A stretch of DNA of 64,000 nt from Thelonectria olida (lineage: Eukaryota > Ascomycota > Sordariomycetes > Hypocreales > Nectriaceae): assembly GCA_020736575.1 (NCBI GenBank), contig JAGPYM010000058.1, positions 78,185-142,184 of the forward strand, in the 5' to 3' direction. The translations under genes and the position numbers were made by a program. Of this stretch, positions 24,415-48,600 are shown one piece after another. The notes below the pieces were generated by a model. The model saw only the letters and a program-made list of their open reading frames with translations. It did not search any database and was not told the origin of the DNA. Numbering within the stretch: the stretch's first letter is position 1; each line of letters starts with the position of its first letter.

Positions 24415-27400
24415 TTACACACAAAGACCAAGGACACAAATACAGCCCAAGAAGGTTGCGCAAAGGTCGAGACCTAAGAGCTTGCAGTCGTTGGCACTGG
24501 CACATGCTCTGTTCTTGCAAGTGCCACTATTGCACACCTCGCTGCTCGCGCATTGACTGTTGGCAGTGCAAGATGTACACACTCCGCCGACACAGGCCTG
24601 GCCAGTGTTGCATTGCGAGTTGAGTGTGCATGCGCCGCATGCTCCAGAGATACATACCTGTCCGGTATTGCACTGCGATTTCAGCGTGCAGGCAACGCAT
24701 TTCCCAGAGATACAAACTTGGCCACCGCTGCAACCGGCGTTTGAGGCACATCCAGGACCGCAGACACCGCTGTTGCACACGTAACCAGACGTGACGGCGC
24801 TGCATTCCGTGTCGAGCGCACAGGACCTGCAGGCTCCAAGGCTGCAGACTTGTCCCGTGGTGCACTGAGAGGCGTTGGTGCAGGGAATGCACAGCCCAGA
24901 CTGACATGTGAGGCCGGTAGAACAGCCCGCGTTGGAGGTGCAAGCCGTAATGCATGTGCCCGAACTGCAGGCTTTGCCGGTGCCACACTGAGAGCTTTGA
25001 GTGCACGATCCGCACCTGCTAGACACGCATGCTTGTCCAGTTGTACATTGAGAGTTGTCTGTGCAGGCAATGCAGTGTCCGGAGACGCAGGCAAGACCTC
25101 CGCTGCACCCGGCGTTGGACGTACATCCAGCTGAACAAACGCCGCTGTTGCAAACATTGCCAGGAACCAAACTGCTGCATTGCGTGTCCGATGTGCATGT
25201 ACCGCAGGAGCCGCTCGAGCACACCTGACCGGTTGTGCACTGAGAGCTCGATGTGCAGGCAACGCAGCGGCCCGACGAACATACTTGGCCACCGCTGCAG
25301 GCTGCATTGGTGAGGCACCCGGTAGTACAGATACCGCCATTGCATATCTGTCCGTTGAGAAGACACTGGGCATCCGAGGTACATGCGCTGCAGGCTCCGG
25401 TCAAGCACACTTGCCCGGTATTGCACTGAGAGTTCAATGTGCAGGCCGTACAATGGCCAGACGAGCACACTTGACCAGCGCTGCAGTCATTGTTTGTAGA
25501 GCAAGCCGCAATGCAGACTCCGCCGCTGCATACCTTTCCAGAACCGCACTGGCCATCGAGCAAGCAGGCACCGCACAAGCCGGCCAGACAAACTTGGCCA
25601 GCATTGCACTGAGACGTGTCTGAGCAACTGGTGCAACGGAGACTCTGGCAAACTTGGCCGCTCACGCAGTTCGAATTGGACGTACATCCGGCAACGCAAA
25701 GACCACTGTTGCAGATTTGACCTGTTGCACACTGGGAGTCGGAGGAACAGGCGCCGCAAGCCCCAGAAGAGCAGATTTGCCCAGTGCTGCACTGAGAACT
25801 GGCCGTGCAAGCAATGCAGTGACCCGAAGAGCATATCTGGCCGTTGTTACAGTTCGAGTTGCTCGTGCAAGCTGCGATGCAAAGGCCACTGCTGCAAACC
25901 TGGGAAGCGGAACATTGCGAGTCGGATGCGCAGGCGGTGCAAGAACCGGACTGGCAGATTTGTCCAGCAGTGCACTGGGACGAAGCCGTACACGATGTGC
26001 AAGTTCCCGATTGGCACACCTCGCCAGTTGCGCAGTTCGAATTGGTTGTGCAAGCCTTGACACATGCTCCGCCACGACAGACGTTGCCAGTTGTGCATTG
26101 AGCATCGAGGGTACACGTAGAGCAGAGCCCAGAAAGACAAACCTGACCTGTGCGGCACTGAGAAGTGCTCGTGCAACCGACACAGAGTCCCAGCACGGAG
26201 CAGACTCTGCCGTTGCTGCATGCGTTGCCACTAGTATCGAGGAAGTTGCACGTCGCCGCACAAAGACCAGTAGTACTGTCGCAGCCCTGCGTGGGCAGAC
26301 ATGAGCCGCCCAGCGTGCACAGTCCGCAGAGGCCGGTGGCAGTATTGCAGGTCTGGCCAGCATTGCATTGGCCGTTCGCAGTGCAGGAGACGCAGAGACT
26401 CGTACCGGTGTTGCAGACGAGGCCGCCGAGGCATTGCGCATTAGAAGTGCAGCCCGCGATACAGAGCCCGTTGCTGCAGACTTGACCGGTGGCGCAGTTC
26501 GAGCTGGCCGTACACGAGGTGCAGGCACCACTGATACAAGCCAGGCCAGTGTCACATTGAGAATTCGAAGAGCAAGAGCTGCAACGGCCAGAGGAACAGA
26601 CTTGGCCAGTGCTGCACTGAGAGTTTGACGTGCAAGTCGCCCGGCAGGCTCCGTTCTGGCAATACTGGCCGATGCCAAGGTTGCACTGTAGATCGGTCGA
26701 ACAAGCGCTGCAAGATCCGAGGAGACACGCTTGGCCGTTGCTGCAGTCCGAGTTGCTTCCGCATGCCACGCAAAGTCCAGACTGGCAAACTCGACCACCG
26801 CTGCACTGGGAGTTGGACGTGCAGCCAGGATGGCAGACGCCGCTCTCGCAAACGAGGCTGCTGTCGCCACACTGAGACGTGAGAAGATAGGAAGCGCATA
26901 GCCCAAGGGTGCAGACCTGGCCGTCGCTGCAGTCCGAGTTGCCGGCGCAAGCGACACACAAGCCCGACTTACAGACTTGTCCGAGAGCGCACGAGGAGCT
27001 CGACGTACAAGCAGGAATGCAGAGTCCACTGCTGCAGACGTAGCCGCTCGAGCACTGCGTGCTATCCGTGCAAGAGCCGCATGCTCCAGACACACAAGCT
27101 TGACCCGTTGAGCATTGGGAAGTGGACGTGCATGCCACACAATGGTCCGATTGACAGATTTGACCGGCGCTGCAGCCGAGACTCGAGGTGCATCCAAGCG
27201 TGCAGCGGCGACTGATGCAGACTTGTCCGGCGGTCGTACACTCGCCATCAGAAGAGCACCCTTGGCATTCTCCAGACTTGCAGACTTGACCAGCGGTACA
27301 CTGAGAGTCTTGAGTACAGTCAGTGCAGAGACCGGCTTGACAAACCTGGCCGGTAGCGCAGGCCGAGTTGGACAAGCACGCAGCGTGGCACACGCCGCCA

Positions 27401-30400
27401 TCGCAGACATCGCCGAGGTCGCATTGAAGGCTGTTGGTGCACGCACCGCAAGATCCAGAGACACATGCCTGGCCGGTACCGCAGTCTGAATTGAGCAGAC
27501 AGGCCGTACACCTTCCATTCGAACACACCTGTCCGCCGCTGCACTGAGAGCTGGACGTGCAGGCAGCTTGACAAGTTCCGGAAATACAAACCTGCCCGGT
27601 ACTACACTGAAGGTCCAAGGCGCAGGATGTGCACAGCCCAAGGAGGCAGGCCTGGCCAGTATTGCATTGAGAGTTGGTCGTACAGCTCGCGCAGACGCCG
27701 AGGATGCAAGCAAGGCTGCCGCTGCATTGTCCATTGGATGTGCAGGCAGGGACACATATGCCAAGCGTACACACGTTTCCAGCGCCGCAGTCGGAGTTGA
27801 GACTGCAAGTTCCACACTGTCCAGCCTTGCAGGCCTGGCCGACGGCGCATTGGGAGCTGTCAGTACAATCGCCACAAGCACCGTCGGAGCAGACATCGCC
27901 CCCGCTGCACTGAGAGCTGAGCGAACAAGAACCGCACACTCCAGCAGTGCAAATCTCTCCGTCTGCACACTGGGATCCCGAGGTGCAAGCGCGGCAGAGA
28001 CCGCCAACACACACCAGACCATTGCTGCATGGATTGCTGTCGGAGCAGGATGGAGTGTCGCTGGTGACGCATTGTCCGTTCTGGCACGCCTTTCCAGTTC
28101 CGCATTGGCTGTCGAGAACACAGCCTGTGCAGACTCCAGCCGGGCAAATTTGGCCTTCGCTACACTGCGCCGAAGTGACACAGAGCGGGAGCAGATTGGG
28201 AAGACAGATACCGAGCTGGCAGATCTGAGCCGTGCCGCACTGAGAGCTTGACGTGCAAGTAACGGGCGTCGAGTCTACGCAAAGTCCACTATTACACACC
28301 TGGCCCGTCGGACAACTCGTCGCCGTGCAGCTGTCGACGCAGGAGCCGAACTGGCAGACTTGGCTGTTGGGGCAGTTTGAATTCGTGCGGCAACCGGCAA
28401 TGCAGCTGCCGAACTGGCAGATCTGTTGGGCACCGCAGGCGCTGTCGAGCGTGCACTGAGCGGGCTGCGTGATGCATTTCCCACCGCTACAGGCCTGGTT
28501 GCTGCCACAACCCGCGTTCGATGTGCAAGATGGAGGGCCGTTGTATGTGCAAACGGCGTCGACGCAGGCGCAGAGGCCGAAGAGGCAGATATCGGCTCCC
28601 AATACCTTTCCAACACACCGCGAGTCACTGTCGCAGGAGGTGGACGGCACAAGACAGTTTCCGTTCTGGCAAATCTCTCCTGCGGACGTGTCACAGTTTG
28701 AATTCGAGACACATGTCGGGGTTGAGCTGCCAAGTGCGCAAACGCCGTTGATACAGAGACAGACTCCGGGAAGGATGCACAGGTCGACGCCGACCAGACA
28801 GTCGCTGGCGCTGTTGCAGTCCTTCTTGGTGTTGCAGGCGCCGCTCTGGCAGGTTTGGCCAGTCGGGCATTCCGAATCCGCCGTGCATGAGTCGATACTG
28901 GGTGACAGCTGACACTTGCCGCCCTGGCATGTGCAGAGACCGAGAGTGCAGAGCCCCACGCCTAGAAGACAGTCGGCAGCGGTGTTGCATGATACCGTAG
29001 AAACGTCGGGAGTGCATATTCCAACAGTGCATACTTGGCCCTCGCCGCACTCAGAGTTGGTTGTGCAGGTGAGGGAGCGAGGAGCACAGGCGCCGAGAGT
29101 GCAGAAGTAGTCGCTCTGACAGTCGGAATCAGATGAACATTGGACTGGGGTCGGAGTATGACACAATCCGAGAGTGCAGGTCTGCCCCGATGGGCAAGGG
29201 TTGCTGTCGCTGCATCGAGTCAGAGTTGACACACAAAGACCGGCCACGCAAATTTCGCCATCGGAACCGATGCAAGCGTCGTCGTCGCTGCAGCCGATAA
29301 CAGCTACAGGGAGGCAAAGACCGGCTCGGCAATCTTCCCTCTGACCACAGTCGCCGTTGGTCTGGCACCCAGAAAGGCCGCCAGGAAGGCAGATGCCACT
29401 ACTGCATGTTTGGCCGGTTGAGCATCCAGCAGAGTCAGTGCAGGTGTTGAGAAGACTCGGGAAGCACACGCCGTTGGTGCAAGTCGACCCCGAGGCACAG
29501 TCGGAATCTCCGGAGCACCCGGGGAATGACTCGGGCAGGCAGAGCCCGGCTCGGCAAACATTGTTGGCACCACAATCGGAGTCGGCGGTACAGAGGATAG
29601 AAGAAGGGACGCAAAGGCCAGACTCGCAAGCCTGGCCGTCGCGACATTCTTGGCTGTTAGAACAGCCAGTCAGCAGTCCAGGGAGACAGGTTCCCAGGCG
29701 GCAAGTTAACCCTTCGGCACACTGGTCGTTCTCGCCACAAGCCGGGAGAACTTGGGGAATACAGACTCCGCCGGTGCAGGTCTCACGCTGAGCGCATTCA
29801 ACCGAGGACTGACACGTCGTGAGTGAGGAGGGAAAACAAACGCCGGACCGGCAAGTTTCATCGGCACTGCAGTCAGTATTTGACTGGCAGCCGGGTAGGA
29901 GCTCAGGAATACAGATGCCGCCAGAGCAGGATTGACCGGTTGCGCAGGCAGCATTGGATGTGCAGGAAGTGATAGTGCGAGGCACACAGAATCCAAGCCT
30001 GCAAACTTCGGTAACTTGGCAGTCTGAATCCGTGGTGCAGCTCGGGAGGAGGCTGGGAAGGCAGACCGCGGCCACGCAGGTTTGACCGACGTCACAGTCA
30101 CTGGTGGCCGAGCATCCGTTGAGAGTTTCCGGAAGACATAGACCGGACACGCAGTCTTGGTTGGAGCCGCAGTCAGCCGCCCTGGTGCAAGTTGGGAAGA
30201 CGGTCGGGAGGCAGAGGCCGGCTGTGCAGGTCTGGCCCGTTTGACACTGGTCGTCGGCTGAGCATGTCACCGAAGCCCGAGGAATACAGACGCCAAGTCT
30301 ACACACCTCGGCGTTGTCGCATTCAGAGTCAGCCTCGCACGATGGGAGAACGCTCGGCAGGCACACGCCTCCAGTACAGGCCTGACCCGTCTCACAGTCG

Positions 30401-33400
30401 CTGGCGGACTGGCATCCGGTGAATGTATTCGGGAGGCAGAGTCCGGAGAGGCACGTCTCGTTGTCGCCGCAAGCCTGCCCCGACCCGCAGTTCGGGATCG
30501 AAGTCGCAAGGCAGACGCCAAACGTGCAGGTTTCAGTCGCTCCGCAATCAGTGTTGGCGACACATATGCTCAGGTTTTCGGGAATACAGAGACCGAGCCT
30601 GCAGGCCGAGCCGGAGCCGCATTCCGCATCAGATTGGCACGAAGGCAACACCTCCGGGAGGCAAACCCCAGACACACAGCTTTGGCCATCTTCACAGCTG
30701 GTTTCGTCCGTTGCGCAATCGCCAAGAGAGCTCGGAAGGCACACGCCAGCGACACAGTTGTCGGCGGCTGCACAATCTGCCTTGGTGCTGCAAGCTGAGA
30801 AGACTGGAGTGAGGCACAATCCGTTGTTGCAAACCAGGCCGCCCGTGCAAGCAGAATCACTGCCGCAGAGAGAAAGCGACTCGGGAAGACACACTCCAAG
30901 TCGGCAAACTTGGCGAGAACCGCATTCAGAGTTGGTCGTGCACGAAGGGAGGCCGCTAGGAAGGCAGACGCCCGAGCTGCACGTTTCTCCCGTGTTGCAC
31001 GCGGTGCTATCGACGCACGTGGGGAGAAGAACTGGGAGGCACACGCCGCCAGTGCAGGCGTTGCCAGAGCCGCAGTCGCTATCTTCTTGACAAGGAGGGA
31101 AGACCTCGGGGATGCATATGCCAGCAGAGCAAATCTCTCCCTGGCCGCATGACGACTCCGTCTGGCATGTATCCAGTGTCCGCGGCAAGCACACTCCGAG
31201 CCTGCATACGCTGCTGCTTCCGCAATCTGAGTCGTCGCTGCAAGTTGGAAGCTGAGCAGGAATGCAAAGTCCTCCAACGCATGAACTACCCGTAGGACAT
31301 TGATCGCCAGTTCCACACGCGGCAAAGACGTTGGGGAGACACCGGCCAGCCTCGCAAACCTGGCTGGTGCTGCAGTCGGAGCTCGTCGTGCAAGGAGGGA
31401 ACACTTCAGGGACACACACGCCGGCTGCGCATGTCTGGCCATCTTGACACGACCCGCCGCCTTCACCGCCGCAGAGAGCGGACGTCGAAGGAAGACACAC
31501 GCCCAGTCGGCATACTTGACCAGTACCGCAGTTCGCGTTGCTTGTACAGGCGGGCAGGTACTCGGGTAGGCAAACTCCTTCGTTGCATTTGAGGCCATCG
31601 TCGCATGCATCGTCGCTCTCGCAGGTGGGCAAGATGCTCGGCAGGCAAAGTCCGGCCTTGCAGGATAGGCCGTTGGCGCAATCGCCGTCTTCTTCGCATG
31701 GCGGGTAGACTTGAGGGAGACATATACCTCCAGCACAGGTCTGACTCTGGCCGCACTGGTTGTCGCTTGTGCACTGAGTCAGCGTTTCGGGGATGCAGAG
31801 ATTCAGCCGACAAACTTGTCCAGAACCGCAATCCGAATTAGCCTGGCAAGCCGAGAGGCCTTCAGGGAGGCACACGTCGGAAACGCAGGTCTGGCCTTCG
31901 CCGCACGTGTCGTCGGTGCAAGCGCCCAACACGCTGGGGAGACACACGCCCGCTGTGCAGGTGTTTCCTCGTCCGCAATCCGAGGCGTCTGAGCAGGGCG
32001 GGAAGACTTCAGGGAGGCAGATGCCGCCTGTGCAGGTTTGGCTGGTGCCGCACTGCGCGTTCGTTGTGCACTGGTTGAGTGTTTCTGGAATACAGAGATT
32101 GAGGCGACAAACTTGGCCACTCGCGCAGTCAGAGCTGGATCCGCATGAAGACAGGGCGTCGGGCAAGCATATTCCAGAAACACACTGCTGGCCCGTCGCA
32201 CAGTCGCCTTGGTTCTGGCAATCGTCGAATACGCCAGGGATGCAAATGCCACCGGTGCACTCTTGTCCACTGATGCAATCGCTATCGGCGGAACATTGAG
32301 CGAAGGCTTCGGGAACACAGAGCCCAGCTGTGCAAGTCTGACCATCGTTGCATTGGCCGTCGCTTTCGCAAGTCGCGATCACATCGGGGATGCAAAGTCC
32401 GAGCCGGCAGACTTGGCTAGAGCCGCACTCGCCATCCGTGGTGCACGTCGGGAGATTAGCCGGGAGGCACACACCGGAGACGCATGTCTGGCCATCGCTA
32501 CAAGCTGAATCGCCCGTGCAAGCAGGCAAGGTTCTGGGTAGGCAAACGCCGTTGTAGCATTCCGCGCTGCTGCCGCAATCCTGGGCAGTCTCGCAAGCTG
32601 GGAAGACTTCCGGGACGCACAAGCCGGCTGTGCATATCTGGCCCGCGTTGCAGTTACTTGCGCTGGTGCAAGAGATGAGAGAATCCGGAATGCAGAAACC
32701 AAGGCGACAAACCTGGTTGGAGCCGCAATCATTGTCGGTGCCGCAGTCGCCCAGAGTACTCGGAACACACACCCCAGACGCGCAGGTTTGCCCGTCGAGA
32801 CATGCATTCTCATCCTCGCAGCTGGGGAGGATACCGGGCAAACACACGCCGCTGCGACAGGTGTTGCCAGTGTCGCAGTCCCCGTCGGCTTCGCAGGTAG
32901 GGAATACTGGAGAAAGGCATATTCCCGCTGTGCACACCAGGCCACCAGTGCAGCCTGCATCAGACGAGCAAGTGCTGAGAGTCTGGGGCAGACAATAGCC
33001 GAGTCTACACACCTTTCCTGTGGCGCATTCCGAATCGCTCTGGCATGTAGGAAGGGAGGCCGGAAGGCAAACTCCAGACACACAAGTTTGGCCATCGTCG
33101 CAAGACTCCTCGCCAGAGTCCGAGCAGGTAGGGAAGACTCCAGGAAGACAAATGCCGCCGGTGCAGGCCTCGCCTTCGCCGCAAGAAGAACTCGACGCGC
33201 AAGGGGGGTAGACTGGCGAAAGGCAAATGCCCGCGAGACAGGCGAGCCCGTTGTCACATTCGCTGTCGGTCGTGCACGTCGCAAGCTGTTGAGGGATGCA
33301 GTATCCCAGCCTGCAAACCTGCGCAGTATCGCATTCCGAGTCGCTTGCACATGAGGGTAACAGAGTAGGAAGACAAACACCGCTTCTACACACGCGACCC

Positions 33401-39400: not shown

Positions 39401-42400
39401 TGACCTGAGCCACAGTCTGACGGGTTCGTGCAGCCGTTCAGCGTGGAAGGAAGGCATATGCCTCCGAGACAGGCTTCGTTGTCGCCACAGTTCTGATCGA
39501 CACTGCACTGAGGGAAGACACCGTCAATGCACACTCCCAGTGTGCAAACTTGTCCGTCTTGGCAATCGCCCACATCCGCACAAATAGTCAGCGAAGTGGG
39601 AAGGCACGTTCCGAGACGGCAGACTTGATCCGAAGGGCAGTCATTGTCGCCAGCGCACGTCGAGAAGGAGTCCGGAAGGCACACGCCGGAGGAACAGGTC
39701 TGGCCTGGTCCACATGGATTGCCATCTCCGCATTGTGTCAAGCCTTGAGGCAGGCATATTCCGGCAAGACAAGATTGGCCTTGGTCGCAGGTTTCGTCAG
39801 TGGTGCAGGCGGGGAAGATTTCCGGCACACAAAGTCCCGCCACGCAGATATTGCCGCTCTGGCACGAACTGTCGCTGTCGCAGGTCGTGAGTGTTTTGGG
39901 AATGCAGACACCGAGACGGCAAACCTGATTGCTATTGCAACTCGTGTCAGATGTACATGGTGAGAGGGTGCTCGGGAGGCACACTCCGTTGGTACAAATC
40001 AGGCCTTCGGCGCAAGAGTCATCAGTTCCGCAGGAGCTGAGGCCGGCAGGGAGACAAGCACCTCCCAGGCATGATTCTCCTTGGCCGCAGCTGTCGTCCG
40101 AAGTACAGGCAGGGAAGATTTCAGGGACACAAATTCCACCAGTGCAAATCTCGCCACTGCCGCATCCCGTGTTCGTCTGGCACGCGGTAAGGGTTTTCGG
40201 AAGACACACACCGAGTTGACACACCTGGTCTCTTTCGCAGTCCGTATTGGCGCCGCACTGGCTGAGGCCGGTGGGGAGGCAGGCGCCGGATGTGCAAGTC
40301 TGACTCTCGGCACAATCTTGATCGCCTTGACATGTGTTGAGCCCCTGCGGAAGGCAAACTCCTCCAATGCAAATCAGTTCTCGACCGCAGTTCTGATCCG
40401 ATGTGCACGTCGAGTAAACCTGGGGTAAACAGATACCGCCAGTGCAGGCCTGATTGGCGTTGCATTGGTCGTCCGAGGTACAGGTGTTGAGAGTCTGGGG
40501 GATGCAAAGTCCAAGACGGCAGACCTGATCGGTAGCACAATCGGTCGATACAGTACATGCATCAAGCCCCTCGGGGAGGCACACGCCGGATGTGCACGTT
40601 TGTCCGGATGTGCAAGGTTGGTCGTCTCCGCACGTCGAGAGACCAGCAGGTAAGCACACGCCGCCAACACATTGCTGTGCCTGGGCGCAATTCTGGTCGG
40701 ATGCACACGTAGGGAAGACCTTAGGCAAGCATATGCCGCCGGTACAGGCCTCGTCTTCGTCGCATTGAGAATTCGATGTGCACGTTGACAGCGTTTTCGG
40801 AACACATACTCCAAGGCGGCATACATCACTGCTACCGCAGTCTGCATCCGCTGAGCAGGTTGAGAGAGTCGACGGAAGACACACGCCAGAAGTGCAAGTT
40901 TGTCCCTGGCTGCATGGAGTGTCCGTACCACAGCTGGCGAGGCCACCGGGAAGGCATATACCGGCCAAGCAAGCCTGACCCTGTCCGCAGGTTGCATCGC
41001 TAACACAGGTGGGGAGAACTGGAGGCACGCAAAGCCCGCCGGTACAAACGTTGTTGCCTTGGCAGTCGCTTGTCGAGGTGCAGGTAGAGAGTGCTTTGGG
41101 AATACACACGCCGAGGCGACATGCGGCGTTGCCACCACAGTCCGTATCCGTAGAGCACGTAGGCAGGTCGGGAGGGAGGCACACTCCACCAACGCACGTC
41201 TGGCCGTCTGTGCAAAGAGTATTGGAGTCGCAGCTGGCGAGGCCTTGGGGAAGGCATATGCCGGCAGTGCAAGATTGAGCCTGGCCACACTCTTGGTCCG
41301 TTTCGCAGGTTGGGAAAGCCGTGTTCAGGCATACGCCAAGGGTGCAGGTCTGAACCAAAGTGCAATCACTGTTGGTTACACATAGCGTCAGGTCTTCGGG
41401 AATGCACAATCCCAAGCGGCAGGCTTCGTTGCTGCCGCACTCGTTGTTTTGGCTGCAGGCAGAGAGGGCGTCCGGAAGGCACACGCCGGACCTGCAGGTC
41501 TGACCCTGGCCACAAGGTGTATCGGTGCCGCACGAAGCGAGCCCCTGGGGAAGACAGATACCGGCGAGACAGGCCTCATTCTCGGCACAGTTGGCATCGG
41601 TTGAGCAAGAAGGGAAGACTCCGGGCAGGCAAATTCCGCCGGTGCACAGTTGAGCTTCGGGGCAGCCACTATCGGATGTGCACGGAGTGAGAGTGCCGGG
41701 GACGCAGACGCCCAATGTGCACACGGTTTCACTGCCGCAATCGCTGTTTTGGCTGCACAATGGCAGGTTTTCGGGAAGGCACACGCCGGACGTGCAAGTT
41801 TGTCCAGAGGCACATGGCGTTTCGTTGTCGCAACTGGCGAGCCCGGCCGGAAGACACACGCCAGCTGTGCACTCTTGGTTGTTCGCGCAGTCACTTGGCT
41901 GTTGGCAAGTCGGGAACAGCTCGGGAACACAAATTCCAGCTGTGCAAGCTTCGCCGGTTGAGCACTCGCCATCGCTGTTGCAAGCTGTAAGGGTTTCCGG
42001 GAGGCACAGCCCAAGACGACACACCTCGTTGGACTCGCAGCCAGCGTTGTCGGAGCAGGAGGCCAGCCCGATCGGCAGGCATATACCGGAAACGCAAGCT
42101 TGGTCTTGGCCGCACCCGGAATTGCCAGAACAAGTTGGCAGCGAACTAGGTAGGCACACGTTTACCGTGCAAGTCTGGCCAGGAGCGCAGTCCTGTGAGG
42201 TCTGGCAGGGAGGGAAGACGTTCGGAACACAAGCTCCACCGGCGCAAGACTCGTCGTCGCCGCAGTCGCCGCTTTCCGAGCAGGCTGGGAGCCTGGGGAC
42301 ACAAAGACCGGCTGTGCAAGTGTTGGTGTTTGAACACTGCGCATCATTCTGACAGCCCGTAAGCGTCCGCGGCAGGCACACGCCAAGCCTGCATGCTTCA

Positions 42401-45400
42401 TTGTTGGTGCACTCTGAGTCGAGGGTGCAGGATGTCAGGCCCGCGGGGAGGCAAAGACCGGATACGCAGCTTTGGGCGTCGCCGCATTCTGATGCAGCGG
42501 AGCATGGGGTCAGCGTGCTCGGGAGACATGTATTCGCCGTACAAGTCTGACCAGAGCTGCAATCCTGGGATGTTCGGCACGGAGGTAGGAAGGTAGGGAC
42601 GCAGTGGCCCAGGGTGCAAGACTCGTCGGAATTGCAATCGGTGTCCTGCGAGCAGCTGGAAAATAAGGGCACGCAAATGCCAACGGTGCAGGTCTCGGTG
42701 GTGGAGCATTCCGAATCGCTCACACATATGCTAAGGTCCTGGGGAACACACACGCCGAGTCTGCACGCTTCTGTAGCATCACAGTCCGAATCGACAAGGC
42801 AGGTAGGCAAATCTGCTGGTAAGCACACGCCGTTTGTGCAAGACTGGCCTTCTTGACAGCTTGAGCTATCCGAACAAGCACTGATACCCGTGGGCAGACA
42901 GTAGCCGGCGATACAGCTCTCGCCAGTTTCGCAAGTGTCGGCAGTCTCGCAAGTCGGGATGATGGTGGTCGGGATACAAAGACCGGCCGCGCAGACCGCA
43001 CCGGAGCCGCAGTCGGCGTCGGCGGAGCAGAGAGAAAAGGTCGGGGGGAGACAGGCGCCGAGTCTACACACTGCGTCACCTTCACAATCGGAGCTGGTGG
43101 TGCAGGGAGGTAGGCCCGACGGAAGACAGACGCCACTGGTACAAGACTGGCCTTGCTCGCAAGACGAGCTGTCGGCACAGGTCGTGACGCCCGTGGGAAG
43201 GCACAGTCCGGCGATGCAACTCTCGCCAGCACCGCAAGTGTTGTCGCCAGAACTGCAGGATGGAATGATGGTATTAGGAAGGCAAAAGCCTGCCGTGCAC
43301 GTTTGGCTGCTGGTGCAGTCTGTGTCGGAGGCACAAGTAGTGAGGCCTTGCGGAATGCAGGCTCCGAGCCTGCAAACTTGAGTGTTGGGACACTCGGAGT
43401 CGCCTGCACAGGTGGCGAGTCCCTCAGGAAGGCACACTCCCTCTGTGCACACCTGACCCGGGGCGCAATCGACGTCAACAGCGCAGGTTGCGATGCTTGT
43501 GGGCAGGCAAACGCTCGCAGTGCAAGCCTGCGACTCGTCACAGTCGGAGTCTTGGGTGCAGGAGGGGAAGATGGTGGAGGGAACGCAGAAGCCGGCCGCA
43601 CACGTGTTGCCAGTCGAGCAATCGTTGTTCGATTGACACAGAGACAGGGTTTGCGGAATGCACACGCCCAATCGACACAGCTGGTTGACGGCACAGCCAG
43701 AGTCAGAGGTGCAGTCGGTGAGGAGATCAGGAAGGCAGATTCCGTTCGTACAAGACAAGCCGCTCGCGCAGGGCGTGTCGGAGCAGCTTTGAAGACCGGA
43801 GGGCAAGCACACGCCAACCGTGCAAGACTGATCATCGCCGCAATCAGAGTCCTCGGTGCAGGTAGGATACACGGCAGGGGAAACGCAAAAGCCGGTGCTG
43901 CAGATGTCTCCGTTGGAACAGTCGCCGTTCGAGTCGCACAGAGACAGGCCTTGCGGAAGGCACACGCCTAGTCGACAAATCTGGCCACTTGCACATGGCG
44001 AGCTGCTGCTGCATTGAGGGAGAGTTTCCGGGAGACAGATTCCGCTAGTGCATGATAGACCGGTGCTGCAGGGGGAGTCTTGTGAACATTCCGCAAGTCC
44101 GGTAGGTAAACAGGTGCCAGCGGTGCAGCTTTGACCTTGAGCACATTGAGAAGTCTCGGTGCAAGAAGGGAAGATTGTCGAAGGCACACAGAAGCCAGCG
44201 GTGCAAGTTTGGCCATCGCCGCACTCAGAGCTCTCGGAACAGAGCGAGAGATCCGTGGGAATACAGATTCCGAGCCTGCACACTTGCCCGTTGCCGCAGT
44301 CAGAGGTGTCTTGGCACGTCGGAAGATCAGGCAAGCAGACCCCAGAGACGCAAGACAAGTCCTGGCTGCATGGAGATGTCTCAGAACAGCTTTGGAGACC
44401 CGTCGGCAAGCAAACTCCGCCAGTGCACGTCTGGTCTTGGGCACACTGAGACGAGGCTGTGCAGGTCGGGAATATCGTAGTCGGGACGCAGAAACCCGCG
44501 ACACAGCCCTCGTCTTGACTGCATTCAGAGCTGTCAGAGCAGAGCGAGAGGTCCGTCGGGACGCACACTCCCAGTCTGCACACCTGGTTGTTACCGCAAC
44601 CCGCTTGGTTTTGGCAGGTTGGGAGAACATCAGGTAGGCATACGCCATTCGTGCAAGCGAGACCCGGGCCACAGCTCGAGGCATCGGAACAGCCTTGGAG
44701 ACCGGTCGGCAAACAGAAACCCGCCGTGCAGGTTTGGCCTTGGCTGCATTGAGACGATGCTGTGCAAGAGGGATAGATTGTGTTCGGGATGCAAAAGCCG
44801 GCCGCGCAGGTCTGGCCCTCGGCGCAGGATGTATTATCGGTGCACAAGGAGAGATCTGAAGGAACACAGACTCCGAGGCGACAAAGCTGGTCGCTACTGC
44901 ACCCGCTGTCGTCTTGACAGGTGGGTAGCAAGTCGGGGAGGCACACGCCGCTGGTGCAAGTGAGGCCCTGGTCGCATTCAGAGTCATCGGTGCAGGTTTG
45001 CAGCCCTGTTGGGAGACACACGCTCGCAGTGCAAGTCTGATCCTGGCCACAATCGGAAGAATCGGAACAAGGAGGGAAAACCTGGTTGGAAACGCAGAAT
45101 CCAGCGGTACAAATTTCGTCTTCGGCGCATGACGAACCATCTGTGCAGAGAGACAAGTCTCGGGGAATGCACACTCCAAGCCGACAAACCTGGCCAGTAG
45201 CGCAGCTCGAGTCTCCTGAGCAAGTCGGCAGGAGATCCGGAAGGCAAACACCGCCGGTGCAGACGAGACCCTGACCGCAGGAGGAGCTGCCGGCACAAGT
45301 GTCTAGCCCTGTGGGTAAGCACACGCCGCCGGTGCATGATTGTCCGTCGGCGCAGGTGTTGCTGCCGCCATCGCACGTAGGGAAGACAATCGTAGGGATG

Positions 45401-46608
45401 CAGAAGCCCGCCGTGCACGTCTCGTCCTGCTCGCAGGTGGAATCGTCGGTGCAGAGACTCAGGTCTGAGGGAATACACACACCAAGCCGGCAGACCGTGA
45501 CGGCATCACAGTTGGACTGATCTCCGCATCCCGACAGGACATCAGGAAGACACACTCCGGATGTGCACGTGAGGCCTTGTCCGCAAGGCGAGTCATCTGA
45601 GCAGGTCGCCAATCCCGTGGGCAAGCACACGTTGGCGATGCAGGCTTGTCCCTCGTCGCAGTTGTCGTTTTCGTCACTGCAAGTCGGGAATATTGGAGAC
45701 GAAACGCACAATCCTAGTGAGCAAATCTGGCCCTGAGCGCAATCGGACAGCTCGGCGCAGATGGACAGGTCCGGAGGAAGGCAAACTCCAAGTCTGCAAA
45801 CCTCCTCACCCTCGCAGCCAGAGTCTCCTGTACACGTGGGAAGCGTACTAGGGAGGCACACGCCGCCGGTGCAGGTAAGGCCTTCGGCGCAGCTTGAACT
45901 GTCTGAGCAAGTCTCGATTCCTGTCGGTAGACATATACCGGCCGTGCAACTCTGTCCGGCTGGGCAGTCATCGCCGCCGTCGCAGGTGGGAAATATTGGA
46001 TTGGGAATACACAAACCAGCGGTGCAGATTTCTCCCTCGCCGCAAGACGAGCTGTCGGTGCATGCGGAGAGATCAGTCGGAAGACACACACCGAGCCGAC
46101 ACACTTCGTCATTAGTGCAGTCAGTCTGGCCGGAACACGTCGGTAAAGATCCAGGTAAACATGCACCGCCAGTGCAAGTGAGACCATCGGCGCAGTCAGA
46201 GTCTCCTGTGCAGGCAGCAATCCCATCAGGGAGGCAGGTCCCGGAAACACATTGCTGGCCGTCTGCACAGTCGCCCTGGCCCTGGCAATCGTCGAAAATG
46301 GTAACGCAGATGCGTGCAATGCACTGTTGGCCATTGATACAGTCGCCATCGACCGAGCATCGGGTAGGTTCTCCTGTGTTTGAAGTTGTTGTGGTTGGGT
46401 TGGCAGTGATTGTCGTCGAAATGCGTTCTGAGGCTGCATAAGAAGTCGTCGAGTTGACCAGGCCAGGAGTTATTGTTGGCATAATAACAAACGTTGTCTG
46501 AGACGACGGGAATGGAGGCAATAAGGTAACAGCGCGACATCGACCAGCATCAACGTCGGTAAAATAAAACGCTGCGAGAGCGAGGGCGACAATCCTGAAG
46601 TTAGCCAT
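24415..46608 (-). CDS. giant secreted cysteine-repeat protein, about 7,397 residues, single exon
   Basis: One open frame runs 22.2 kb without a stop. I start it at the ATG at 46608 because it begins a clear signal peptide (MANFRIVALALAAFYF...). An upstream in-frame ATG at 46683 would bury that signal. After a Ser/Thr-rich linker of about 60 residues, nearly the whole protein consists of 4-cysteine units C-x5-C-x5-C-x4-C joined by 2-8-residue linkers. By length I estimate about 290 units and well over 1,000 cysteines. Residues up to about 5,800 carry 25-26-residue units in a four-part higher-order repeat. A short region then has 6-cysteine modules, and the last ~1,300 residues use 20-21-residue units. 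There is no transmembrane segment or GPI signal at the end. Disulfide-rich rod, wall matrix component, adhesin or sponge-like binder are all possible. I do not recognise a named family. The conserved frame and cysteines show it is under selection. No intron is needed. Confidence 0.93.
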   Translation of the reverse strand: MANFRIVALALAAFYFTDVDAGRCRAVTLLPPFPSSQTTFVIMPTITPGLVNSTTSYAASERISTTITANPTTTTSNTGEPTRCSVDGDCINGQQCIARICVTIFDDCQGQGDCADGQQCVSGTCLPDGIAACTGDSDCADGLTCTGGACLPGSLPTCSGQTDCTNDEVCRLGVCLPTDLSACTDSSSCGEGEICTAGLCIPNPIFPTCDGGDDCPAGQSCTAGICLPTGIETCSDSSSCAEGLTCTGGVCLPSTLPTCTGDSGCEGEEVCRLGVCLPPDLSICAELSDCAQGQICSLGLCVSSPIFPTCSDENDNCDEGQACIANVCLPTGLATCSDDSPCGQGLTCTSGVCLPDVLSGCGDQSNCDAVTVCRLGVCIPSDLSLCTDDSTCEQDETCTAGFCIPTIVFPTCDGGSNTCADGQSCTGGVCLPTGLDTCAGSSSCGQGLVCTGGVCLPDLLPTCSGDSSCATGQVCRLGVCIPRDLSLCTDGSSCAEDEICTAGFCVSNQVFPPCSDSSDCGQDQTCTASVCLPTGLQTCTDDSECDQGLTCTSGVCLPDLLPTCQDDSGCSSDQLCRLGVCVPSDLSLCTDNTSCAEGQTCAAGFCIPNTIYPSCTASSQCSQGQTCTAGFCLPTGLQGCSDASSCGPGLACTNGVCLPDVLPTCQNQAGCGNNQVCRLGVCVPTDLSLCSDSSECSQDEGCVAGFCVPTTIFPTCTASSQCAQDQTCTGGVCLPTGLQSCSETSPCSQDLSCVSGVCLPDLPTCQDTSDCGNGQVCRLGICIPTDLSLCSESSECGDGQTCTAGFCVPSTIFPSCTETSQCAQGQSCTAGTCLPTGLAECSQDSPCSTGLSCTSGICLPETLPQCSSSSPCASGQICRLGVCLPQGLSLCDSNGDCSNGDICSTGFCVSPAVYPTCTEDSDCGDDQSCTVGVCLPSGLQSCSDTPCASGLSCTNGICLPDLLTDCTSDSGCAVNQLCRLGVCIPQTLSLCQSNNDCSTGNTCAAGFCVPSTIFPSCTQDSDCDESQACTASVCLPTSIATCAVDVDCAPGQVCTEGVCLPEGLATCAGDSECPNTQVCRLGACIPQGLTTCASDTDCTSSQTCTAGFCLPNTIIPSCSSGDNTCGAGESCIAGLCLPTGVTTCADSSSCEQGQSCTSGVCLPSGLPPCTTSSDCEGDAVCRLGACLPPTFSLCSADADCGSGAVCAAGLCIPTTIIPTCETADTCETGESCIAGYCLPTGISACSDSSSCQEGQSCTNGVCLPADLPTCLVDSDCDATEACRLGVCVPQDLSICVSDSECSTTETCTVGICVPLFSSCSQDTDCNSDESCTLGHCVPTFLPPCRTSQDCSSGQTCTANTCLPSTLTPCSAASECGDAQSCVSGLCLPAGLTSCTLDSECTNNEACRLGVCLPRTLTGCQNDAQCSNTNTCTAGLCVPRLPACSESGDCGDDESCAGGACVPNVFPPCQTSQDCAPGQTCTVNVCLPSSLPTCSGNSGCGQDQACVSGICLPIGLASCSDNAGCESNEVCRLGLCLPETLTACNSDGECSTGEACTAGICVPELFPTCQQPSDCANNQECTAGVCLPAGLASCDNETPCASGQTCTSGVCLPENLPLCSQNSDCGSETVCTLGVCVPGTLTPCTSDSGCPEAQLCTGGICLPGVFPSCSTDANCAENEACLAGICLPQGLASCGTDTPCGQGQTCRSGVCLPDALSACSQNNECGSNEACRLGLCIPEDLTLCVTNSDCTLVQTCTLGVCLNTAFPTCETDQECGQAQSCTAGICLPQGLASCDSNTLCTDGQTCVGGVCLPPDLPTCSTDTDCGGNAACRLGVCIPKALSTCTSTSDCQGNNVCTGGLCVPPVLPTCVSDATCGQGQACLAGICLPGGLASCGTDTPCSQGQTCTSGVCLPSTLSTCSADADCGSSDVCRLGVCVPKTLSTCTSNSQCDEDEACTGGICLPKVFPTCASDQNCAQAQQCVGGVCLPAGLSTCGDDQPCTSGQTCTSGVCLPEGLDACTVSTDCATDQVCRLGLCIPQTLNTCTSDDQCNANQACTGGICLPQVYSTCTSDQNCGRELICIGGVCLPQGLNTCQGDQDCAESQTCTSGACLPTGLSQCGANTDCERDQVCQLGVCLPKTLTACQTNTGCGSGEICTGGICVPEIFPACTSDDSCGQGESCLGGACLPAGLSSCGTDDSCAEGLICTNGVCLPSTLSPCTSDTSCNSNQVCRLGVCIPKTLTTCDSDSSCQSGNICVAGLCVPEIFPACTTDETCDQGQSCLAGICLPQGLTQCGDGNPCGPGQTCSSGVCLPDSFSTCAGDNDCPSDQVCRLGTCLPTSLTICADVGDCQDGQVCTLGVCIDGVFPQCSVDQNCGDNEACLGGICLPSTLNGCTNPSDCGSGQSCTGGVCLPAILPTCSSNSACDSDQVCRLGVCIPETLTTCQGDNACQSGQICTAGICLPKVYPNCEADTDCSTSQVCREGLCLPSVLEGCSSSNECRTGQTCIGGVCLPAALSQCSTDSECDSTDVCRLGVCLPRALTVCSFDADCSEGQACTAGICLPTAIPGCSADEDCGTGEACKAGLCLPLDIDTCTSSSECPSNQICTSGVCLPSILPACTVDSDCSDNGVCRLSVCVPRVVTVCTSESDCSNGQVCTAGICLPEVYPTCDETTDCTGGQICTSGLCLPPGVDTCSVNSDCTSSQICTEGVCLPSALSPCSDDSGCIVEQVCRLGFCIPRDLTSCESSSGCSQGETCTAGICLPTVFPGCTTDSNCDEDETCTSGTCLPQGLVTCTANSECATGQSCTNGVCLPSILPPCSDDSGCAIDLLCRLGVCVPRDLTACTGNEACSAGQVCTLGFCLPEVFPSCESGGSTCADGQTCTSGLCLPTGLEGCATDDQCDIDQTCRSGVCLPSLLPTCSGDSACTAEQVCRLGVCVPRSLTACTVDSDCTQGQGCVAGICLASAFPPCQSSTDCGQSEACIAGTCLPGGFESCTTDDDCGQDEACRSGACLPAILPACTVDTECSGSNVCRLGVCLPPTLTTCEDDSACGSGQTCTAGVCTPALYPPCRSDTDCASSSSCRDGTCLPNILEQCSSSSDCGGAESCVSGVCLPVTLPSCTGDSDCGSNQLCRLGLCIPQQLTSCTSDGQCVGDNECKAGICVPPLFNGCTASANCTQGSSCTAGVCLPQGLDACSDNSECSSGQVCTSGACLPSVLPTCTATSDCQASQVCRLGVCLPQALNTCQTDSSCTQGQSCIGGICLPSPFPDCTGAGDCDSDEACTGGICLPQGVGSCTSDSDCGDEQSCTSGACLPTLPTCATNTECDSSEVCRLGVCLPQIINTCTADSDCTDNETCAGSICIPKVFPSCEGDEDCRNTESCAGGLCLPQGLDTCTGDEDCSTDQKCTGGVCLPDTLPLCSGDEACASDHVCRLGVCIPTDISLCAVDEQCGIDQVCTSGICLPAAFPPCQTDSNCGNGNVCRNNICLPNVLPSCGSGDTCAAGQTCTAGICLPSGLDSCTADSGCRSDQACRLGLCIPRDLTLCQQDSGCAANQVCTGGLCLPEALSPCQSSQECSSGQSCTGGICLPSAIVGCSDSSTCSTGQTCTSGVCLPSGLDRCTLDEDCDVSLLLLCRLGVCVSADLNLCTGDSDCGSQETCAAGLCVPALFPSCTGTSDCGEGQTCTNNVCLPNTLTPCSSESPCPSDQTCTAGLCLPNVLSTCSSNAQCDDREVCRLGLCLPTSLTSCEADSGCLDGQSCTGGLCLPTAFPDCSTSQDCGSGNVCISGSCFPDLVNQCTDDLSCGTGARCASGLCVPDFLPTCSSDSQCISTQVCRLGVCLPRDLTSCTTSQDCGSGQTCAAGLCVPDTYSTCTTSTDCSQGQVCNAGLCLPDFLNSCQDDSACTTGQTCTNGICLPSTLSSCSSNSACEDNEVCRLGVCIPRTISGCNSETPCGSGQTCTAGICLPTAFPGCESSASCGSGQTCTAGLCLPDVLSSCGEGNTCPSDQTCASGVCVPSVLPSCSEDSECTSTQVCRLGVCLPRTIVDCTDDGGCDDGQNCVAGFCVPELFPPCQSATDCTSGQSCTAGICLPSGLDTCQSQSDCGTSQSCSNGVCLPDFLPACTSEDDCSGAQVCRLGHCLPSELDACQTDSQCEAGQSCLGGLCVPAVFPPCQSDSNCNSGQVCTAGVCLPSALPTCDSDQSCGANQACVSGLCLPDILQTCTTDATCSGDDVCRLGYCIPDALTVCTSDSECTGGATCLGGLCLPEVFSSCTDSQDCNNGEVCRGGACLPTTLTGCDDSSPCGANQVCTGEVCLPDSLPLCSTDSQCAFSQVCRLGVCLPRSLSTCESNGDCSNTFICTSGLCIPPLFSSCSVDSECAQGQSCVSNTCLPTTLETCTSDTTCGTGRVCRSGVCLPTLLPSCASDSECDTAQVCRLGYCIPQQLATCTTDSECDNGLACLAGICLSPVYPPCASSSSCGEGEACTGGICLPGVFPTCSDSGEESCDDGQTCVSGVCLPASLPTCQSDSECATGKVCRLGYCLPQTLSTCSSDAGCTGGLVCTAGICLSPVFPTCEADGDCDTGNTCRSGVCLPGILPSCEDENACLDGQTCASGVCVPSTLGDCGTDNDCGSNQVCRLGFCIPDSLISCTSASNCNAGQICTAGLCVPEVFPACETAQDCGSSAECYNGVCLPRTLPACTGDSACSDGQTCVSGVCLPANLPTCTTDGECGSSQVCRLGLCIPDVIATCESDGQCNDGQTCTAGLCVPEAFAQCSADSDCISGQECTGGICIPGVFDDCQNQGDCATGQQCVSGICLPDALSSCGSSSDCASGQVCRLNLCIPETLNQCTTNAQCGTSQTCTGGICLPEVFPPCSDASDCGRGNTCTAGVCLPSVLGACTDDTCGEGQTCVSDVCLPEGLSACQANSDCGSGQVCRLNLCIPETLTQCTSDNQCGQSQTCAGGICLPQVYPPCEEDGDCANGLSCKAGLCLPSILPTCESDDACDDGLKCNEGVCLPEYLPACTSNANCGTGQVCRLGVCLPSTSALCGGEGGGSCQDGQTCAAGVCVPEVFPPCTTSSDCSTSQVCEAGRCLPNVFAACGTGDQCPTGSSCVGGLCIPAQLPTCSDDSDCGSSSVCRLGVCLPRTLDTCQTESSCGQGEICSAGICIPEVFPPCQEDSDCGSGNACTGGVCLPVLLPTCVDSTACNTGETCSSGVCLPSGLPSCTTNSECGSRQVCRLGVCLPESLSLCGSDSACTGGLVCNNGLCLTPVFSACSTKADCAAADNCVAGVCLPSSLGDCATDETSCEDGQSCVSGVCLPEVLPSCQSDAECGSGSACRLGLCIPENLSICVANTDCGATETCTFGVCLATSIPNCGSGQACGDNETCLSGLCLPNTFTGCQSASDCETGQACTGGVCLPSVLPSCEADSECDNAEVCRLGVCIPRASVTCSADDQCQTGQTCTAGLCLPTVFPTCTRAADCGSNQDCVSGLCLPETLNGCSATSDCDVGQTCVAAVCLPSLLPSCTTDSDCQVTEVCRLGFCVPRTITSCTSNAACATGQSCSGGICIPELLPGCQSNTDCSADETCRSGVCFPSSLTTCQSSVECAQRETCTGGVCIPQVLPACGENDQCAEGLTCRLGTCLPGLLTGCSNSQECRDGQACESGLCVPSSILCTADSDCGANNVCRAGLCLPESFPGCSGDSDCASGSTCTNGVCFPSLLNTCTDSAGCSTGQTCSSGICLPGGLSGCQTNGDCGQREDCRAGLCLPVAVIGCSDDDACIGSDGEICVAGLCVSTLTRCSDSNPCPSGQTCTLGLCHTPTPVQCSSDSDCQSDYFCTLGACAPRSLTCTTNSECGEGQVCTVGICTPDVSTVSCNTAADCLLGVGLCTLGLCTCQGGKCQLSPSIDSCTADSECPTGQTCQSGACNTKKDCNSASDCLVGVDLCILPGVCLCINGVCALGSSTPTCVSNSNCDTSAGEICQNGNCLVPSTSCDSDSRCVGKVLGADICLFGLCACVDAVCTYNGPPSCTSNAGCGSNQACSGGKCITQPAQCTLDSACGAQQICQFGSCIAGCRTNSNCPNSQVCQFGSCVDSCTATSCPTGQVCNSGLCVDSTPVTCTSSSQCGTAQICQLGICLPNLLPLCVTSAQCSEGQICPAGVCTGCVLDSQCGTGKACQNGQCVTSDTPSCSDSNPCSNGLVCVGGLCRACTSGSQCADGEICTAGVCGSCSLSSQCSGGDVCSDGACGDCTDSSQCAVGQACKAGQCGTCSLNSDCGAGNVCTLGICVPACTSNGQCSGSLACILGVCASCTTNSQCNTGQACLLGLCTSCALDLQCSTGQVCISGTCQAACTSSSQCSGGQVCSNGRCTACLLNSDCGTGQACVSGSCGACTNSLQCDLGDVCDGGVCHAACLSNSACATGQVCQAGLCTDCTQDSQCTAGQVCKSGECQGCSSDGECTTAGQVCISRRCTLGCTSSLGCSAGQICQSDHCVACTSTSQCSTGQACVSGACGSCTDSTQCSSGYVCSSGLCIPACTSSSSCALGQVCKSGLCVACAGNSDCSDGQVCTLGLCASYLLTSQCGDSSLVCESGVCHPGCTSNSQCSGGRVCQSGLCVACGSNSDCSNGQACLLGSCSACSTDLQCNLGIGQYCQNGACRATCTSNSQCSTGQVCSSGRCSSCSSNSQCDTGLACISGACTSCTASSNCATGQVCSNGLCIAGCTSNAQCLGGLVCNTGTSLCVSCTANGQCNAGQTCNTATGLCGLCTLGGSCLPTQGCDSTTGLCAATCNFLDTSGNACSNGRVCSVLGLCVGCTSTSQCRTGQVCLSGLCSTCTLDAQCTTGNVCRGGACVKACTTNSNCATGEVCQSGTCTSCTASSQCTAGQICQSGSCTACASDSQCSASQVCSSGLCIAACTSNSNCNNGQICSSGHCIACTASSQCSTGQICSSGACGACSSDSQCATGQICNSGLCVAGCTSNSNCVSGQVCQSLRCTSCSDTSQCNAGQVCLAGLCGACLLDGQCGSGKVCSGGVCIAACSTNNDCSAGQVCSSGHCTACTLNSQCNTGQVCLTGACSACTSDAQCLLNGQICNGGICTTGCLTNAACSGGQVCSSGRCVACTSSSQCTTGQVCSSGSCGTCTSDTQCSSLVPGNVCNSGVCSAGCTSNAGCSGGLACVSGHCIACTDNSQCTTGQACVSSRCGSCTQSSQCGTGKACSSGTCITACTSNAGCSTGLTCQSGLCIPCTNASQCTTGQVCSLGACRSCALDTECSAVTSGYVCNSGVCGPGCASNAGCSGGQVCISGKCVACTLKSQCNTGQVCISGACGACTLNSQCNTGQACVGGVCTSCTANSQCASSEVCNSGTCKNRACASANDCKLLGLDLCATFLGCICVLGLCV
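24514..28539 (-). repeat. coding short-period cysteine repeats (20-21 residues)
   Basis: The C-terminal ~1,300 residues of the giant gene are about 60 units of C-x5-C-x5-C-x4-C followed by only 2-3 residues before the next cysteine, for example CTSNSQCSTGQVCSSGRC. The higher-order A-B-C-D order is absent here; instead units ending in ACTS/GCTS and CTAC/CGSC alternate loosely. Confidence 0.8.
28540..29230 (-). repeat. transition region with 6-cysteine modules
   Basis: Three modules of the form C-x5-C-x6/9-C-x4/5-C-x-C-x4-C (centred near 28955, 28780 and 28595) interrupt the 4-cysteine series. They contain DCLLGVGLC and DCLVGVDLC-like phrases. The same module type closes the protein at 24415-24513. 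Confidence 0.75.
29231..46359 (-). repeat. coding higher-order repeat array (four-subunit, ~100 residues)
   Basis: Within the giant gene, units alternate in a fixed order. A: ...VCRLGVC(L/I/V)P; B: ...LSxC-x5-C...CTAGxC; C: ...(I/V)FPxC-x5-C...CTxGxCLP; D: ...GLxxC-x5-C...CTSGVCLP. I counted about 53 subunits with CRL plus variants with CTLG or CQLG, so roughly 55 copies of about 300 bp. Some copies have five subunits. Cysteine positions are kept while nucleotide sequences have diverged. Confidence 0.85.
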
Positions 46609-47060: not shown

Positions 47061-48600
47061 GGGACCTTGTGTCAACAGCGGCACCGTTGTGTGAAGGTCT
47101 AGGAGGAAGTTGATGTATGGGACCGTTGTGTAGAGTCTTAGAGAAGTACTGTTGTACGAATAATCTTGGAGAGGCACCGTCGTGCAAAGGTCGGGGGGAA
47201 GTCGGTATAGAGCATCGGGGGGGAGGGGCACTATTATGCGAAGGTTAGGAGGAGGTCGGTGATAGCATCGGGGGGAGGAGGGGCACCGTTAGTAGAGTAT
47301 TCAGAGAGCCACTTCACGCAAAGGTTAGGAGAATTCAGTGTGCAGCATTGGGGGGAGAAGGCATACTGTTATTTAAAGTCTTGGGTTGTATAGAGTCTTG
47401 CAGAGGCACCGTTGTGTGAAGGTCGGGGGGAAGTCGGTATATAGCATCAGGGGGGAGGGGCACCGTCAGTAGAGTATTCAGAAAGCCACTGCCGCGCAAA
47501 GGTTAAGAGGATTCAGTGCGTAATATTAGGGGGAGAAGGCATACTGTTATTCAAAGTCTTGGGTGTGTAGTCTTGGAGAGGCACCGTTGTGCGAAGGTTC
47601 TTGGAGGCACTGCTGTGCGAAGGTTAGGAGGAAGTTGGTGATAGCATCGGGGGGAGGAGGGGCACCGTCAGTAGAGTATTCAGAGAGCCACTGCCGCGCA
47701 AAGGTTAGGAGGAAGTCAGTGTGTAGCATTAGGGGGAGAAGGCATACTGTTATTCAAAGTCTTAGTTGTGTAGAATCTTGGAGAGGCACCGTTTGCGAAG
47801 GTTGGAGAGGCACTGCTATGCCAAGGTTCTTGGAGGCACCGTTGTGCGAGGGTTCTTGGAGGCACCGTTGTGCGAAGGTTCTTGGAGAGGCACCGTTGTG
47901 CGAAGGTTCTTGGAGGCACCGTTGTGCGAGGGTTCTTGGAGAGGCACCGTTGTGCGAAGGTTCTTGGAGATACTGTTGTGCGAAGGTTAGGAGGAAGTCG
48001 GTGATAATATGGGGAGGAGGGGCACCATTAGTAGAGTATTCAAAGAGCCACTGTCACGCGAAGGTTAGGAGAAGGCAGTATGTAGCATTAGGGGAAACCG
48101 GCATACTGTTATTCAAAGTCTTGGGTTGTGTAGAGTCTTGGAGAGGTACAGAGGCACCGTTGTGCGAAGGTTCTTAGAGGCACTGCTGTGCGAAGGTTAG
48201 GAGGAAGTTGGTATAGTATGGGGAGGAGGGGCACCATTAGTAGAGTATTCAGAGAGCCACTGTCGCGTAAAAGTTAGGAGAATTTAGAGCGTAATATGGG
48301 GGGAGAAGGCATACTGTTATTCAAAGTCTTGGGTTGTGTAGTCTTGGAGAGGCACCGTTGTGAGTCTTGGAGAAGCACCGTTGTGCGAAGGTTCTTGGAG
48401 ACACTACTGTGCGAAGGTTAGGAGGAAGTTGGTATAGTATGGGGAGGAGGGGCACCATTAGTAGAGTATTCAGAGAGCCACTGTCACGCGAAGGTTAGGA
48501 GGAAGTCAGTGTGTAGGATTGGGGAGGAAGAGGCGCACCGTTTTGAGTCTTGGAGAGGCACCGTTGTGCGGATTCTTAGAGAGGCACTGCTGTGCAATCA
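47061..48600. repeat. tandem minisatellite-like array, ~180-220 bp units
   Basis: The marker AGTAGAGTATTCA recurs at about 47291, 47468, 47670, 48030, 48239 and 48460. Each copy is followed by GCCACTG, AAGGTTAGGAGGAA, GGCATACTGTTATTCAAAGTC and GGCACCGTTGTGCGAAGG blocks. Spacings of 177, 202, 360, 209 and 221 bp show unit-length variation and no consistent multiple of three, so the array is non-coding. Confidence 0.85.
47805..47985. repeat. nested 26/29-bp short tandem repeat
   Basis: Inside the longest (360-bp) unit, the segment TTCTTGGAGGCACCGTTGTG-CGAAGG repeats about seven times with 26-bp or 29-bp periods (the longer form has an extra GAG). This accounts for the enlarged unit. Confidence 0.85.

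Follow-up and report, generated by a model that had tools for sequence, protein, structure and literature searches.

We analyzed a stretch of 64,000 nucleotides from the fungus Thelonectria olida (contig JAGPYM010000058.1, positions 78,185 to 142,184; hereafter the window) and found that a single intronless gene encodes a protein of 7,397 residues composed almost entirely of short cysteine (Cys) units. With moderate confidence, we read this protein as a secreted extracellular fiber: about 300 minimal knottin modules, each held by two disulfides, joined into a chain of 735 kDa with a role in the extracellular matrix or the cell wall.

The reading frame and its cysteine units

The frame lies on the minus strand: its stop codon occupies positions 24415-24417 and the sequence is free of stops back to position 46782 (7,455 codons). 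A Met at 46608 precedes a hydrophobic leader, and a start at this position yields the 7,397 residues. The chance of finding no stop across 7,397 codons is about 10^-101 when computed at the base composition of the gene. The GC-content of the gene is 59%, compared with 50% on its left and 52% over the adjacent 5 kb on its right. The protein contains 1,212 Cys (16.4% of its residues) and presents an isoelectric point of 4.05 and a net charge of about -552 at pH 7. A preliminary description of this DNA had reported an uninterrupted frame of about 7,400 residues, correctly placed at 24415-46608 but without its strand, and had claimed that it is intronless; both claims are borne out. No intron is required because the unit pattern is continuous from residue 84 to the end of the protein. 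Hidden introns were rejected, since the coding sequence does not exceed the level of codon-shuffled sequences in intron-like strings (27, relative to a mean of 34.7 and a range of 21-45 in 50 shuffled versions).

Units were counted by tokenizing every Cys in order along the chain after residue 83. This yielded 301 units. Of these, 296 contain four Cys, with the strict spacing C-x5-C-x5-C-x4-C in 274; another four contain six Cys (at residues 5874, 5931, 5992, and 7369), and the three Cys that remain from residue 6580 are read as a single three-Cys unit. Residues not belonging to any unit number only about 83. The same spacing had been described beforehand in roughly 290 units, which is close to our count. 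The commonest residues per unit are C-T-S-D-S-D-C-x-x-G-Q-V-C-x-x-G-V-C, and most loop positions are highly variable among units. Across 270 strict units, Gly stands two positions ahead of the last Cys in 93%, and Asp is the top residue at the third (42%) and fifth (33%) positions between the first two Cys.

The units are organized in an N-terminal array and a C-terminal array separated by a hinge (Table 1). The N-terminal array follows the consensus C-x5-C-x5-C-x4-C-[LIV]-P-x-x-[LF]-x-x, with linkers that start with [LIV]-P, and presents a super-repeat of four units: identity between units four apart is 0.374, relative to 0.277 +/- 0.007 (maximum 0.301) when the order of the units was shuffled 1,000 times. 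The motif CRLG occurs 50 times in the protein, and 46 of the 51 steps between units bearing CRL are of exactly four units (three are of eight and two of five). A weaker cycle of three units was observed in the C-terminal array (lag-3 identity 0.44; reached by 2 of 1,000 shuffles). The acidic excess amounts to 510 residues in the N-terminal array versus 21 in the C-terminal array. The protein is thus a block copolymer. The chain ends on a Cys module, and no long hydrophobic tail, as expected for the C-terminal signal of a wall protein anchored by GPI or in the membrane, was seen there by inspection.

The array is old and maintained by selection. Comparing repeats within this single gene, rather than across species, we found that synonymous differences between units four apart are saturated (proportion of synonymous differences, pS, 0.778; nonsynonymous, pN, 0.346; 184 pairs). 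Identity at third positions is 0.364 between these units, relative to 0.306 by chance, and the choice between TGC and TGT at matched Cys is independent (same codon in 424 of 736 cases, or 0.576; expected 0.589). Only one of 1,204 core Cys has been lost. Together, synonymous saturation and the retention of virtually all core Cys indicate old repeats under strong purifying selection. A tandem-repeat artefact or a recent amplification was rejected on the low identity between repeats. Tandem Repeats Finder reported two short arrays within the gene. When 300-bp blocks are compared in unit register without gaps, no pair exceeds 66% identity, and the 536 plus-strand self-matches (E <= 1e-3) include no case that combines a length of at least 100 bp with 80% identity. 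A second copy of the gene was also rejected, as 483 bases at its 5' end have a single match in the genome.

Family matches, relatives, and predicted fold

We searched Pfam with four pieces of the protein (about 1,900 of 7,397 residues) and NCBIfam with three. All four pieces matched DUF7107 (PF23416) above the curated cut-off of 24.6 bits (95, 129.8, 167.4, and 76.3 bits; E from 2.2e-21 to 7.7e-50). Dickkopf_N (PF04706) scored above its cut-off of 25 in three pieces (65.7, 50.9, and 39.1 bits) and reached 23.1 bits in the fourth. The C-terminal piece matched the myxobacterial repeat Myxo_Cys_RPT (TIGR04201) with 113 bits (E 2.4e-33; cut-off 25), and two pieces of the N-terminal array remained under this cut-off (15.6 and 16.0 bits). 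TraA itself (NF033759) scored 28.1 bits in the C-terminal piece, against a cut-off of 750, and the other two pieces gave no match to it. The preliminary description could not match the protein to a described family, a statement that these matches correct in one sense: the repeat type is already named in databases. Those names do not tell its role here, and DUF7107 was not mentioned in the literature that we searched. The matched names are names of repeats that do not settle function; the hit to a well-characterized family that had been named beforehand as the refuting result therefore did not occur in our profile searches.

Two profile searches of the T. olida genome, the first scoring 150 of 325 candidates (hence a lower bound) and the second 86 of 86, placed the family at three loci. 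At least 121 stretches exceed the DUF7107 cut-off, most of them within the present gene; three additional short-frame hits of the second search (E 0.7-5.2) were treated as noise. One relative, on contig C80, is a paralogue of 305 residues and eight units that shares the plan of the giant: a leader, AG-x-C-x-A, and a Ser/Thr-rich segment. The other is a sibling giant (C100:2955032-2974562; L032-L034) whose three frames together hold 71 units of four Cys and two of six, along with 20 Cys not assigned to a unit. Its repeats alternate with long Ser/Thr-rich, mucin-like tracts repeating GG-x-ISDAGST, which is the plan of a surface protein. The sibling shifts frame twice, and the first shift contains a 55-bp intron-like string (GTATGC...CTAAC...TTAG); the gene likely has at least one intron. 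A partial copy (C59:8001-15606; L035) is 99.87% identical to the C100 gene over 7.6 kb, with zero mismatches, nine gap openings, and broken frames; it probably represents a redundant contig with indel errors.

Structure prediction of consecutive units, proposed in the preliminary description, was run with AlphaFold2 on two segments, using the protein's own repeats as input alignments (26 and 10 rows). For the N-terminal array, a model of eight units obtained a predicted local distance difference test score (pLDDT) of 66.7 and a predicted template modeling score (pTM) of 0.37; one short helix and two strands recur in every unit, in the same order. The model of the C-terminal array, covering six units, reached a pLDDT of 91.2 and a pTM of 0.63. 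The predicted unit consists of a short turn and a hairpin. Searching Foldseek with the C-terminal model, we obtained 14 single-unit matches to squash-type knottins, including engineered entries that we take to be of this type. For ten of them, which cover 20-24 columns at 32-48% identity, the root-mean-square deviation (rmsd) is 0.7-1.0 A; it ranges from 1.3 to 5.9 A in the remaining four. A single unit superposes on MCTI-A with 0.7 A over 20 residues (45% identity), and chains of EETI-II superpose on single units with 0.8-1.3 A over 21-24 residues. The E-values of these matches are weak (above 3) because the matches are short, and larger proteins rank higher with rmsd >=7 A; knottin likeness was therefore judged on rmsd and Cys spacing rather than on E-value. 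VIA-align Z-scores are also weak (2.1-2.7 for the N-terminal model and below 2 for the C-terminal model).

These models suggest that the unit likely folds as a minimal knottin. The inhibitor cystine knot proper, with its three interlocked disulfides, does not describe the units, 296 of 301 having four Cys only. By analogy with the leech peptide HSTX-I, which has the same Cys spacing and for which an excerpt of PMC5845541 gives the bonds Cys2-Cys14 and Cys8-Cys19, disulfides C1-C3 and C2-C4 are predicted inside each unit. Min-23, a two-disulfide version cut down from EETI-II, folds unaided according to the portion of PMC6259850 consulted. Separately, 13 predicted viral proteins of BFVD were matched at E <= 0.001, and a similar repeat is predicted in proteins of giant viruses (Pithovirus, Cedratvirus, Marseillevirus, and others). 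The top match is a protein of Pithovirus sibericum (E 7.2e-10; 42% identity), but its rmsd is 8.4 A across the whole stretch.

Possible roles of the protein

As an extracellular fiber, the protein would combine two arms of different mechanics. The acidic, many-unit arm would form a long, probably bendable, polyanionic tether, and the C-terminal arm, with linkers of 2-3 residues, would be stiffer and nearly neutral. Linkers would govern stiffness; the six-Cys variants are located in the hinge and at the C-terminus. Disulfides within units would confer resistance to proteases and heat, and the acidic arm would repel itself and may hold cations. Assuming 1.5-2 nm per unit, a guess from knottin size, the chain would measure about half a micrometer; its retention via the lone Cys24 is likewise a guess. 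Placed in or on the cell wall or the extracellular matrix, such a protein would act through length, stability, and multivalency as a matrix scaffold, an adhesive, or a spacer. We propose placement at the cell surface because of the mucin-like tracts of the sibling and the rigid stalk role that excerpts of PMC3325183 and PMC6372800 propose for the bacterial TraA repeats. The secreted, disulfide-rich string of the preliminary description is supported, its secretion being judged by eye from the leader. Among the roles listed there, wall or matrix protein and adhesin are still the best guess, and the binder roles are not fully separated from them.

We consider it rather unlikely, although worth weighing, that the protein is instead a secreted multivalent binder whose partner would be a host molecule, a competing microbe, a protease, or a sugar. 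The knottin scaffold would then present one binding face per unit or per four-unit block. The knottin core tolerates loop changes and Min-23 serves as a binding scaffold (PMC6259850, in part), type-specific residues are kept (one of the four units in the cycle carries CRLG, for example), and a subtilase and a DUF1996 protein are encoded nearby. However, most loop positions vary widely among units, neither RGD nor Trp occurs in the protein (no other binding motif was sought), and 300 copies exceed the apparent need of a soluble inhibitor. A matrix that binds or buffers calcium or other metals through its acidic arm would account for the overall charge and for the preferred Asp positions, and two database proteins (P0001 and P0012) combine DUF7107 with thrombospondin type 3 repeats (PF02412). 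This role appears improbable: the C-terminal array is nearly neutral although the same fold is predicted for it, and no calcium-site motif was recognized by the Pfam search of four pieces.

Processing of a polyprotein into many small knottin peptides is very unlikely. Single-unit peptides of the same spacing do exist in a leech, a spider peptide has this spacing plus one more Cys, and the unit is predicted to fold on its own. Dibasic sites, the only cleavage sites considered, are nearly nil in the 7,397 residues (KR 0, RR 1, KK 1, RK 0), which led us to set aside a Kex2-cut precursor. Linkers of 2-3 residues in the C-terminal array leave little room for a protease, and the conserved order of the super-repeats suggests that the chain functions as a whole. 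We give hardly any credence to a decaying or silent repeat frame, open by chance or through assembly. The contig does end in an AT-rich block less than 18 kb from the gene, and the C59 copy reveals apparent indel errors in this assembly, but the present frame runs over 22 kb free of frameshift or stop and has lost a single core Cys despite saturated synonymous sites.

If the extracellular fiber is real, it would, as far as is known, be one of the longest disulfide repeat proteins built from a single fold. Fungal wall and matrix fibers are commonly described as mostly sugars and glycoproteins. The gene would offer an extreme, testable case for DUF7107, a repeat of unknown function, and about 600 disulfides in one secreted chain would represent an oxidative-folding load that must serve some use. 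It would also be a natural material made from a module already employed as a binding scaffold, and a test case for the persistence of long coding repeats in genomes that mutate duplicated DNA.

Feature layout, genomic surroundings, and known systems

Table 1. Features of the gene (positions in the window).
Feature	Position	Strand	Basis or remark
Whole coding sequence, intronless, 7,397 residues plus stop	24415..46608	-	Frame, choice of Met, intron-string test
Likely signal peptide, residues 1-21	46546..46608	-	Judged by eye; C80 paralogue shares plan (leader, then AG-x-C-x-A)
Lone Cys24 right behind the likely cleavage site	46537..46539	-	Also in C80 paralogue
Ser/Thr-rich linker, residues 25-83	46360..46536	-	Read from sequence
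N-terminal array, 231 units (0-230)	28990..46359	-	Mostly 7-residue linkers; four-unit super-repeat marked by CRLG; DUF7107 and Dickkopf_N matches
Hinge with three of the four six-Cys variants (residues 5874, 5931, 5992)	28258..28989	-	Cys tokenization
Nearly neutral C-terminal array; linkers mainly of 2-2-3 residues	24505..28257	-	TIGR04201 match; holds the three-Cys unit (residue 6580)
Six-Cys C-terminal cap	24418..24504	-	In the C100 sibling, a module of this kind lies 40 residues short of the end of the last frame

Profile matches identified the left neighbors as a major facilitator superfamily transporter, a GT64 glycosyltransferase, a subtilase, and a DUF1996 gene; a tyrosinase-like gene scored slightly under its cut-off (22.0 bits; cut-off 22.6). 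The DUF1996 gene is split across two frames (profile positions 1-48 and 50-237), and the apparent leader of the subtilase lies in a different frame from its catalytic part. Both agree with the earlier statement that neighboring genes carry introns, which was checked in part only. On the plus strand, the short frames 18810-19223 and 20513-21064 both carry signal-like leaders, gave no Pfam match, and may encode small secreted proteins. Just upstream of the gene start lies a minisatellite-like repeat cluster (47183-49488; periods 16-221).

The window ends with the contig, in an AT-rich block (52000-64000; 18% GC). Its TpA/ApT ratio is 1.39 versus 0.54 in the gene, and its (CpA+TpG)/(ApC+GpT) ratio is 0.30 versus 1.30. 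By the usual cut-offs, such dinucleotide ratios are the signature of repeat-induced point mutation, which in Neurospora acts at about 80% identity. The array may persist because no self-match of at least 100 bp reaches this level. A bolder and more doubtful proposal is that the protein is an extracellular cable, a block copolymer of polyanionic tether and stiff neutral rod made of about 300 minimal knottin modules, which would be the fungal answer to the giant matrix fibers of animals, and that its array may survive only since its repeat pairs drifted below the similarity required for repeat-induced mutation.

Several known systems resemble parts of this protein. The DUF7107 and Dickkopf_N models cover 48 and 51 positions, whereas the chain described here contains about 300 units. 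Dickkopf proteins are secreted Wnt inhibitors that contain two different Cys-rich domains, of which the second resembles colipase. This animal architecture was not seen here, and no colipase-type family was among the matches at E <= 1 of the four pieces searched. In Dictyostelium, matrix proteins of the EcmA/EcmB type carry CTDC repeats (PF00526), which are arranged in tandem and have four Cys in about 24 residues each. A paper on TraA notes that PF00526 repeats somewhat resemble TIGR04201; however, PF00526 gave no match at E <= 1 in any of the four pieces of the giant. Likeness to the TraA repeats comes from the TIGR04201 match of the C-terminal piece only. As described in the TraA literature, TraA combines nine repeats with a PA14 domain and carries a tag at its C terminus, whereas the giant has little beyond its units. 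Squash trypsin inhibitors, Min-23, and HSTX-I are single peptides of about 23-34 residues, and their likeness to the giant's units is an analogy of fold with weak E-values that does not imply kinship, even for HSTX-I with its identical Cys spacing.

Among the 18 proteins in which strict units were counted by spacing alone, P0017 and P0002 contain 50 each, P0003 contains 44, and the other 15 contain at most 22 each. P0017 (4,120 residues) also presents domains of the epidermal growth factor type and matches the C-terminal part of the giant (E 9.6e-26), but its strict units occur in runs of at most four. The database gave this protein no name; presumably, it resembles insect Dumpy, a giant extracellular protein that contains such domains. 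The sequences L038 and L039 contain seven units and one unit, respectively. A frame from a Myxococcales metagenome-assembled genome (L037; JALTMC010000611.1, open reading frame from 5829) encodes 1,756 residues with 67 strict units, compared with 274 in the giant. This frame has four times fewer units and a leader that by eye resembles a lipoprotein signal, and its best segment is 44% identical to a piece of the C-terminal array.
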